DNA of 64,000 bases, from the NCBI GenBank assembly GCA_017640665.1, contig JAEPQE010000001.1, positions 947,262-1,011,261 on the forward strand. Reading direction: 5' to 3'. Within the stretch, counting starts at the first letter, position 1. Every line of letters begins with the position of its first letter. The position numbers were made by a program, and so were the translations under genes. Shown piece after piece: positions 10,562 to 37,006 of this stretch. Source of the DNA: Balneolaceae bacterium (GTDB lineage Bacteria > Bacteroidota > Rhodothermia > Balneolales > Balneolaceae). The notes beneath the pieces are model-generated. The model worked only from the letters and a program-made list of their open reading frames with translations. It had not been told where the DNA came from and ran no database searches.

Positions 10562-11210
10562 TTTGGGTTCTTTTTAATTCAACAATTGATTTCCCTCTAT
10601 AGAACTCAGATTCTAATACTTTATCAAGGCAGGTTATTTTTACCTCAAAGGGTTCATCTATTTTTTTTAGCTCGCCCTCAACTTCGCTTTCTCCTTTTAG
10701 AAATATAATTTCATTCCACTGTTTACCGGCTAAAAAATCTATCAGCTCAAACACCTTAAATGCATGCTTACTGATAATTGTATACCCTTTAACTTCAACT
10801 TCGGCTATCGGGCCGCTATTTACAACTATATTTTTTAGGTTTAATTTTGAAGATATGTGTTTGGCTACCATCATCTTCTTTTTTACGATATCATTGAGAA
10901 TAAAGCTTTTCTCAGGGAAACAAATTGCTAGTGGCACACCAGGAAGCCCCCCTCCTGTTCCTGTATCAATAATTTTTTGAGCCATTTGAAATCCTTGTGT
11001 AGTTGATATCAAAAGGGAATGCTTTATGTGCTCGAAAAGTGTTTCATGTGAAACATCTCTACTTACGAGGTTAACTTTATTGTTCCACCACATCAACTGA
11101 TCTGAATATTCTTTTAGCTGTATAAAATGCCCGTCTAGAAGACTATTAAGGGTTACGAGGTCTTCTTTGGTGATGTCGGTATATTCAACTTGATGTTTCA
11201 CATGAAACAT
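10554..11210 (-). CDS. rsmG: 16S rRNA (guanine527-N7)-methyltransferase
   Basis: A 218-residue SAM-dependent methyltransferase that modifies G527 in 16S rRNA; loss gives low-level streptomycin resistance in other bacteria. The SAM loop reads IIDTGTGGGLPGVPLAI, followed by the second conserved acid in FILNDIVKKKMM. The first residues MFHVKH are encoded by a parS-like 16-mer, a known oddity of this gene in several lineages. A second identical site lies near codon 52. The ATG overlaps the mnmG TAA by one base. The order mnmG-rsmG near the replication origin is common in bacteria. Confidence 0.94.
   Translation of the reverse strand: MFHVKHQVEYTDITKEDLVTLNSLLDGHFIQLKEYSDQLMWWNNKVNLVSRDVSHETLFEHIKHSLLISTTQGFQMAQKIIDTGTGGGLPGVPLAICFPEKSFILNDIVKKKMMVAKHISSKLNLKNIVVNSGPIAEVEVKGYTIISKHAFKVFELIDFLAGKQWNEIIFLKGESEVEGELKKIDEPFEVKITCLDKVLESEFYRGKSIVELKRTQSE
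11040..11055. other. parS-like site 1 (within rsmG)
   Basis: TGTTTCATGTGAAACA. It differs from the widely conserved ParB-binding site TGTTTCACGTGAAACA by one central base. It lies inside the rsmG coding region. Together with the copy 138 bases further on, it suggests a centromere-like ParB loading site. No parA or parB gene is in the window. Confidence 0.6.
11194..11209. other. parS-like site 2 (rsmG start codon)
   Basis: TGTTTCACATGAAACA, the exact reverse complement of the copy at 11040-11055. It overlaps the rsmG start and encodes its MFHVKH opening. Two identical 16-base near-palindromes in 170 bases are unlikely by chance. One base at the centre differs from the consensus parS. Confidence 0.65.
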
Positions 11211-33124: not shown

Positions 33125-34594
33125 TTATTCACAACTCGCTCGCTCTCTGGCTAGTTTTACCAGTTCCCAGTAAGGAGGTGTGTATCCATACTGAGTTTCA
33201 AATTCCTCTGCACTTTTTCGGGTTTCTCTTTTCAGATTTTCATGACGACTTATAAAAGCATCACTCTTTAACGCCTGAGTTGCACTCATTCCTTCCGGAA
33301 CAGGTCCTATTCCTCCAAACCAATTCTTGATTACACTATATCCTTTTATCACTCTCACTACTGGTAGTAAAAAATGATTGTATTCTATTTCTTCTCCTTT
33401 TTCTGCGGATTCGAGCATAACATCAATTACTGCATTGTATAAGTGATCGTCAAACAAGGCTTCTGAGTTTCGCCACTCGGCGACTACCGAAAGTTGTGGG
33501 TCATATTCCAGATCAGATGGCATCTGAGTTACAAAATTCTCCACTCCGAAGGTGTTTAATAAAGTAACCACCCCATAAGAAGAAATTGTGGACTCTGACT
33601 GCCAAAGCTGAATTCCATTATTCTTATAGGTTGAGGATCCGACTTCCGAACAAAACATGGCTTCATGATCAAAGAAGTTCATTTTGAAATCATAGGGAAT
33701 ATGTCGGCTTTGAGCTTCTTCAAACATTTCCTTTGCGGCGATATGTGGCAACATTGGATTCTCCTGAATTTGAGGGAGATCAAAACGCGGGCGTAATACC
33801 ATAAACCGGAGCTTACGATCAAGGATATACTCTTCAAGATTGGCAATATCTACTCCCCGCTCGATGTGTGCTTCAATGATGTAGGGAATATTGGTTCCTT
33901 CTTCAACATAAATCAAAGCCACATGAGAGAAGTTTCCTGGAAAGTCATTTCCTCTGGATATTAAAGCTGAAACTTCTGCACCTCCTCGTGAAACGAGTAA
34001 GTCGCCGCTATGGACTTTTATTCCCAGAATATTTGTGGCTGGTGTCACTGATTCTTCCTCTTTCACATACAATACAGGATCTATTTCATATTCTGATTGA
34101 AGTAAAACTTCCTCTACAGCGGCTCGCATTCCGTACAAGGTTTTGTACAATACAATCCTTGTTTCTGGTTGATTGATATCCCAGTTAATCGACTCTTCTT
34201 TGATAATCCTTCTTGCCCTATTATAGATATCAAGCAAATATCTTTTTTCTTCTTGATCCGGCAATGCAGCTATCAATGGAGCAAGTTCAAAAAAACCATT
34301 TAACAAATGCTCTAGCCTTGGATCATTCGGTGAAAATTCGATGCTTTCCAATTCACTAAGAACTTTCTCTAGTTTTACCTTTTGTTCTCCGGCATTTAAA
34401 TCAATGGAAAATTGATCTTCATTTATTGCTTCGTAAAACTGGTTTTCCAGCTCATCCCAACGATCGTCCTGATTCCAGATGAAAGGAGAAGCATTTCCTT
34501 CACTTTCTATATTAATGGAAGAAGTATCCGGGATGAGAAGTAATCCATAGAGAAGTACAATTCCAAGAGAAGTATAAAGCAGGATTTTTTTCAT
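33125..34594 (-). CDS. YiiX-like permuted papain amidase
   Basis: A 489-residue envelope protein with an N-terminal hydrophobic segment (residues 4-22) that is either a signal or an anchor. After a helical domain the permuted NlpC/P60-like domain of the YaeF/YiiX (C92) group begins near residue 193 with VHSGDLLVSRGG. His224 (GNFSHVALI) and Cys315 (AMFCSEVG) are the expected catalytic pair. Such enzymes are thought to cleave amide bonds in lipids or peptides. A further 150 residues follow. Both flanks carry the same dispersed repeat. The substrate is unknown. Confidence 0.8.
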   Translation of the reverse strand: MKKILLYTSLGIVLLYGLLLIPDTSSINIESEGNASPFIWNQDDRWDELENQFYEAINEDQFSIDLNAGEQKVKLEKVLSELESIEFSPNDPRLEHLLNGFFELAPLIAALPDQEEKRYLLDIYNRARRIIKEESINWDINQPETRIVLYKTLYGMRAAVEEVLLQSEYEIDPVLYVKEEESVTPATNILGIKVHSGDLLVSRGGAEVSALISRGNDFPGNFSHVALIYVEEGTNIPYIIEAHIERGVDIANLEEYILDRKLRFMVLRPRFDLPQIQENPMLPHIAAKEMFEEAQSRHIPYDFKMNFFDHEAMFCSEVGSSTYKNNGIQLWQSESTISSYGVVTLLNTFGVENFVTQMPSDLEYDPQLSVVAEWRNSEALFDDHLYNAVIDVMLESAEKGEEIEYNHFLLPVVRVIKGYSVIKNWFGGIGPVPEGMSATQALKSDAFISRHENLKRETRKSAEEFETQYGYTPPYWELVKLARERASCE

Positions 34595-35610: not shown

Positions 35611-36051
35611 CTACTTCTCCAATATCAGTGTTACAGGGCCATCATTGATTAATTTCACATCCATCATTGCACCAAACTTCCCGGTTTGAATATTTAAGTC
35701 TGAGTGGTCTTTAAAATATTGAATCATCTCTTCATACATCGGTTCTGCTTTCTCCGGACGGGCTGCTTCTATATAACTGGGACGTGTTCCTTTTTTTGTA
35801 TCTCCATATAAAGTGAATTGTGAAACCACCAGTAGTTCACCTTTTACATCTGTCACAGACAGATTCATTTTTTTATCCTCATCTTCAAAAACACGAAGCT
35901 TTAAAATCTTCTCGCACATCCATTTCATTTGCTGTTCAGTATCATCCTGATGAATTCCTACCAATAATAGAAGTCCCTTTTCTATAACTCCGGTTATTTC
36001 ATTTCCAACCATTACTGAGGCTGAACTCACGCGCTGAACAACAACTTTCAT
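35611..36051 (-). CDS. dtd: D-aminoacyl-tRNA deacylase
   Basis: A 146-residue editing enzyme that removes D-amino acids (and Gly) from mischarged tRNAs. The two active-site motifs are present: LLVVSQFTLYGD (the SQFTL element) and the C-terminal NDGPVTLIL, which holds the Gly-cisPro dipeptide that rejects L-amino acids. The length is standard. It flanks the proposed origin on the minus side and is followed closely by the phosphatase-superfamily gene. Confidence 0.94.
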   Translation of the reverse strand: MKVVVQRVSSASVMVGNEITGVIEKGLLLLVGIHQDDTEQQMKWMCEKILKLRVFEDEDKKMNLSVTDVKGELLVVSQFTLYGDTKKGTRPSYIEAARPEKAEPMYEEMIQYFKDHSDLNIQTGKFGAMMDVKLINDGPVTLILEK

Positions 36052-36475
36052 AAACTGTTTATATGTGGATTACTATGTGGATATCAACTCCATAACTTTT
36101 TGATAACTGAAATCCTTCCGATTTATACACAAGTTTCCACATTCTTTGAAGCTAATCAACATACAAAAAGAATAACTTTCTATGTTAACTTGAGGTACCA
36201 TCATTTTATGTGTAATCAAGGTGTGGTTGTGGAGAAGTTTTTAAAACTTTCTTTAAGTTATTATTAATAAGTATTCACTTGTTCACATTTCTTTCCACAA
36301 AGGATTGTCAAGCTTTGTTGAGAAAAAAGAAAAGTTTGTTTTCAACATTTCCACACTACCTATAACTATATACTAAATTTATAAATCTAATTTTATTTGT
36401 CTTTTAAGCTGTGGAAAAGATTTGGAAAATGAATCCATAAAACTTTTTTAAAGATGGTATATTTATTTTAGCTAA
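36052..36475. other. Candidate chromosomal replication origin (oriC)
   Basis: A 424-base AT-rich gap between divergent dtd and the bstA-like gene. It carries nine sites within one mismatch of the DnaA box TTWTNCACA, at 36064, 36076, 36123, 36133, 36228, 36279, 36291, 36347 and 36410, on both strands. Two are exact: TTATACACA (36123-36131) and TTTTCCACA (complement of 36410-36418). Very AT-rich stretches (about 36241-36275 and 36356-36400) could be the unwinding element. No coding frame of note lies within. dnaA itself is not in the window, which is not unusual in this group. Confidence 0.6.
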
Positions 36476-37006
36476 ATGGAGATTGAAATGAATGAAAGAT
36501 ACCCGATCGGAGAATTTGATTTTAAAGCAAAACGAAGCATCAAGGATGTAGAAGAATGGATTGAAGATATTCGCACTCTTCCAACAAAAGTTAAAGGAGA
36601 GCTGTACGGACAGTCGGATGAAATTCTGGATACCCCTTATCGCGAAGGAGGCTGGACGGTAAGACAAGTGGTTCATCATTTATGTGACAGTCACATGAAT
36701 GCTTTAACCAGAGTAAAATTGACATTAACCGAAGATAATCCCACTATTAAACCTTATGATGAAAAGGCATGGACTACGCTTGGGGATTATGAAGAAGTTT
36801 CTATCAAAAATGCGTTGAGAATGCTTACCGCTATCCATGCAAAATGGGCTGCTGTACTAGATAACATGAAGAAAAAGCAGTTTAAACGAACGTTTCATCA
36901 TCCTGAGTCAGGCATCGATTACGATCTTATTTTAGCGACGGCACATTATGCCTGGCACTGCAATCATCATTTAGCGCACATCCAACTGGTAACCTCAAAA
37001 AAGTAA
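36476..37006 (+). CDS. bstA: YfiT/DinB-type bacillithiol S-transferase-like protein
   Basis: A 176-residue protein of the DinB/YfiT four-helix metal-binding family. Likely metal-binding histidines are in VRQVVHHLCDSHMN (about 62-75) and in HCNHHLAHIQ near the end. B. subtilis BstA joins bacillithiol to electrophiles, and this protein has the same layout, but the thiol is not proven here. The ATG is at 36476, and it is followed six bases later by purM. It lies at the plus side of the proposed origin. Confidence 0.75.
   Translation: MEIEMNERYPIGEFDFKAKRSIKDVEEWIEDIRTLPTKVKGELYGQSDEILDTPYREGGWTVRQVVHHLCDSHMNALTRVKLTLTEDNPTIKPYDEKAWTTLGDYEEVSIKNALRMLTAIHAKWAAVLDNMKKKQFKRTFHHPESGIDYDLILATAHYAWHCNHHLAHIQLVTSKK

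Follow-up and report, generated by a model that had tools for sequence, protein, structure and literature searches.

The closest described counterpart of the locus analysed here is the oriC of Bacillus subtilis with its basal unwinding system (BUS), in which tandem DnaA boxes and a short spacer lead through CTA (3'-GAT-5') repeats into AT-rich DNA (PMC6669920; PMC8287927). A BUS has been defined as at least three consecutive DnaA-trios with a middle A, together with one or two DnaA boxes within 16 bp, the boxes being allowed at most 2 and 4 mismatches (PMC8287927). At the level of whole genomes, Ori-Finder and DoriC predictions use the same signals as those used here, namely the skew minimum, the box cluster and the intergenic position, with dnaA as the default indicator gene of Ori-Finder (PMC10225481, PMC6323995).

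The window, i.e. the whole 64-kb stretch analysed (C1:947262–1011261), comes from the 3.80 Mb genome, in nine contigs, of a marine, Balneola-like bacterium of the Balneolaceae. On computational grounds, the gap at 36052–36475 of the window is, with very little doubt, the chromosomal oriC. As an origin it is an element of the standard kind, notable for its distance from dnaA and for a broken trio tract. The original prediction, that this gap is the origin although dnaA is not adjacent, is borne out by computation: by the density of the box cluster, by a switch in strand-composition skew, by a conserved and mostly single-copy core, by synteny and by nearby parS sites. The features of the locus are as follows.

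35611–36051, minus strand: dtd, D-aminoacyl-tRNA deacylase, the constant neighbour of the origin (TIGR00256, E 7.7e-59)
36052–36475, no strand: predicted oriC, AT-rich intergenic gap with a DnaA-box cluster (from boxes, skew and conservation)
36064–36084, minus strand: dtd-proximal pair of DnaA boxes 12 bp apart, TAATCCACA (36064–36072) and ATATCCACA (36076–36084)
36123–36141, plus strand: conserved DnaA boxes TTATACACA (exact TTWTNCACA) and GTTTCCACA
36153–36161, plus strand: weak DnaA box TAATCAACA, 2 mismatches to TTATCCACA, in a conserved column block
36163–36180, no strand: conserved block other than a box, AAAAAGAATAACTTTC / AAAAAGAATAACTTT (conservation 0.81–0.85, 30 loci)
36228–36236, minus strand: DnaA box TTCTCCACA
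36279–36299, plus strand: conserved DnaA boxes TTGTTCACA and CTTTCCACA
36339–36355, plus strand: tandem DnaA boxes TTTTCAACA / ATTTCCACA with a 1-bp overlap, strongly conserved in 23 aligned genomes
36347–36406, no strand: predicted DNA unwinding element, the least stable duplex in the gap (nearest-neighbour stability)
36360–36368, plus strand: degenerate DnaA-trios CTA-TAA-CTA, preceded by a 4-bp spacer (CTAC)
36410–36418, minus strand: exact DnaA box TTTTCCACA, beyond the AT-rich stretch
36476–37006, plus strand: YfiT/BstA-family bacillithiol transferase of the DinB superfamily (NF009807, E 6.2e-66; DinB_2)

The gap spans 424 bp with 27% GC, compared with 41% across the window, and is flanked by divergent genes, dtd (minus) on one side and the YfiT/BstA gene (plus) on the other, as had been described. 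Sequences matching TTWTNCACA with at most one mismatch occur at 12 sites, spanning 36064–36429; the cluster that had been claimed is therefore present, with 12 sites in place of the nine reported, and its two exact boxes, 36123–36131 (plus) and 36410–36418 (minus), lie where they had been placed. Throughout the window the same motif is found 178 times, barely above the 161 ± 12 expected by chance, so that the signal lies in the local density. When 697 kb of the own genome was sampled in segments of 424 bp, the gap ranked top with 12 boxes, the next segments holding 7, 7 and 7, and likewise for TTWTCCACA (10 versus 4 in the next) and TCCACA (7 versus 4); no other segment came near, which answers the concern that comparable box densities might be common in this genome. 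Dinucleotide shuffling of the gap (n=1000) gave a mean of 2.35 and a maximum of 9 TTWTNCACA-like sites as against the 12 observed, and at most 2 copies of TCCACA as against 7, confirming a DnaA-box cluster above background. Exact TTWTNCACA was rejected as an origin criterion, because its genome-wide count (340) shows no excess over a reversed-pattern control (355) and because the dnaA upstream region scores top with it. Several lone exact matches are scattered elsewhere in the window (21008, 33125, 45799, 50135 and 63173).

Conservation within the gap was assessed from alignments of 30 family loci, the tandem-box core being aligned in 23 genomes. Boxes at 36064–36084, 36123–36141, 36279–36299, 36339–36355 and 36410–36418 are conserved, and the block TGTGGATTACTATGTGGA at the dtd-proximal pair is approximately 91% conserved across the 30 loci. 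The block at 36163–36180, which is not a DnaA box, is possibly a candidate site for another origin-binding protein. The tandem boxes at 36339–36355 are presumed to be the DnaA platform of the unwinding core, and beside them lies an AT-rich element, the 60 bp at 36347–36406, with the stability minimum of the gap (61.1, a value undercut at only 0.04% of window positions). The core block consists of two boxes overlapping by one base, a spacer of 4–5 bp and CTA repeats; it reads GTTTTCAACATTTCCACACTACCTATAACTA in the window and GTTATCCACTTATCCACAGTCTCTACTACTA in relatives. Described as TCMACA-N0-8-CTA(NNN)CTA, this arrangement is found in 29 of the 30 family gaps, against 0.2% of gaps after shuffling, and the 64-kb window has a single copy of it.

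An AT-rich gap upstream of dtd is kept in all 30 family loci (369–518 bp, 26–32% GC, 8–16 boxes), and dtd itself was detected in 53 of 58 Balneolaceae genomes. In several of these loci the right-hand gene is different and longer with the gap still in place, indicating that the gap does not depend on yfiT. A profile built from the sequence of the core alone (82 bp, 36338–36419) has matches in 194 of the 245 class genomes, mostly one per genome, and in the genome of the window the dtd gap is its only site. In G092 and G103, which belong to other families of the order, the core is flanked by dtd and purM, and elsewhere in the class it also occurs with neither neighbour detected; the core of one distant class member (G187) reads TATCCACATATCCACAGTCCCTACTACTAC. 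Matches outside the class are mostly weak, and no origin is claimed for these in the phylum. Change-point tests on 20-kb flanks of ten distant core matches were imprecise: GC skew rises across most of them, with the best point often many kb off, and these matches are therefore not claimed as origins from skew.

Strand composition was followed at fourfold-degenerate sites in stretches of the contig that contains the window (C1). Along this contig, nearly every 20-kb sample left of the window had a negative GC skew, and those right of it were positive without exception. A change-point test over a contiguous 240 kb, with gene strand allowed for, gained 146 log-likelihood units and had a two-unit support interval of 35740–36990 in the window. 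The AT-skew minimum was located at window position 34427, and cumulative GC skew taken alone has a flat, valley-like minimum whose lowest point, 28435, lies 8 kb left of the gap; AT skew and the combined test are centred on the gap or adjoin it. In a complete congener genome (G024, with the near-identical record CP051242.1, Balneolaceae bacterium ih13), the change falls at 319251–321001, with the core at 320155–320236 and dtd at 320522, and the sign of the skew reverts at 2.1–2.3 Mb, the expected antipode being 2.19 Mb. For G042, also complete, the best change points are 954751–956001 and the gap is at 955348–955782. The skew flips back roughly opposite the gap in both complete relatives. The GC-skew check proposed with the original prediction thus came out in its favour, a strand-composition switch falling on the gap in three genomes (own contig stretches, G024 and G042).

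Predicted sites for chromosome partitioning are also present in the origin region, as listed below.

11040–11209, no strand: two parS-like palindromes, TGTTTCATGTGAAACA (11040–11055) and TGTTTCACATGAAACA (11194–11209), in rsmG and next to mnmG

With up to one mismatch allowed, the genome has no other parS-like sites; the pair lies 25 kb from the gap, and six relatives have parS-like sites 15–36 kb from the same gap. The two palindromes are 154 bp apart and are mutual reverse complements, with the central CG changed to TG in one and to CA in the other. The same TG/CA pair is seen in congeners (G024 and G005), and the canonical TGTTTCACGTGAAACA in other genera. The sole ParB match (C3:63339–63866, L189) is on a different contig from the parS sites.

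Adjacency to dnaA is common for oriC, but it is not required. Here dnaA lies approximately 368 kb from the gap on the same contig, and it is distant in G024 and G042 as well; the encoded DnaA carries the domain IV signature GGRDHSTV. Just upstream of dnaA (C1:1351300–1351646; about 11300–11646 of L060) there are four exact boxes, two of TTTTCCACA and two of TTATCCACA, all in one direction, at about −347, −336, −184 and −85. This is more exact boxes than the gap contains, and the positions are conserved in three genomes (four exact in two of them, three exact and one mismatched in the third). A TTGACA-TATAAT-like promoter is located between the boxes. Such a cluster could be taken for the true origin, leaving the dtd gap as a DnaA-titration or secondary site, a reading that we regard as very improbable: the skew does not change at dnaA but is positive on both flanks, a CTA-repeat core is not visible there in the sequences of the three genomes, and the core profile matches the own genome only at the dtd gap. 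Given the missing CTA repeats and skew change, we read the dnaA-upstream boxes as autoregulatory, which their arrangement fits; alternatively, they could be what remains of an ancestral origin linked to dnaA.

The divergent orientation of the flanking genes and a conserved TATATTT near 36457–36463, which we take to resemble the −7 element of Bacteroidota, would suit a region without origin function in which DnaA controls a promoter of dtd or yfiT. However, the gap and core persist with another right-hand gene or, in other members of the class, where neither neighbour is detected, and a promoter would not be expected to produce a skew switch on the scale of the chromosome, so that this explanation too has a very low probability. 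Lower still is that of an integrated plasmid, prophage or other mobile-element origin; DnaA boxes do occur in some plasmid origins too, but the neighbours here are housekeeping genes, the synteny is vertical in 30 of 30 family loci, the core is mostly single-copy and the skew centred on the gap is chromosome-wide.

With the gap taken as oriC, initiation would begin with DnaA binding to the boxes scattered over it. From the overlapping boxes (36339–36355), a pair of DnaA molecules would then guide a filament of DnaA-ATP onto the CTA tract (36360–36368), and this filament would open the AT-rich DNA as far as about 36406. Loading of the helicase would follow, with two forks departing, one towards dtd and the other towards yfiT/purM. 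DnaA binding, the order of these steps and the site of opening are all modelled on what is known from other bacteria.

The open literature searched yielded no description of a Balneola origin or of an origin adjacent to dtd, although a DoriC entry for a relative is possible. The gap thus provides a precise and testable origin for a family with none described in those papers. Since dnaA is distant and dtd is the constant neighbour, the dnaA-based default of Ori-Finder would mislead here, and automatic origin calls leaning on dnaA could go wrong in the Balneolaceae genome studied.

Measured against the BUS, the boxes at 36339 and 36347, with 2 mismatches each and a spacer of 4 bp, fall within the published tolerance. 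A scan of the window by the strict published rule returned zero matches, because the middle trio is broken in the genus (CTA-TAA-CTA), leaving fewer than three trios in a row. At the aligned place the strict trio rule holds in 17 of the 30 family loci and is broken in 13, the genus of the window among them, and the window element is therefore a degenerate version. The family hence offers natural trio-tract variants, 17 intact and 13 broken, with which the number of trios required by DnaA could be tested. We suggest, tentatively and with considerable doubt, that DnaA of the Balneola lineage may open its origin with broken trios (CTA-TAA-CTA, or two) and overlapping boxes, three consecutive trios being unneeded, and that the origin may be tied to dtd, not to dnaA, in much of the order. 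Unlike Bacillus subtilis, the gap has two boxes sharing 1 bp, TAA in place of the middle CTA, and dnaA 368 kb away; like Bacillus subtilis, it leads from tandem boxes through a short spacer and CTA repeats into AT-rich DNA.
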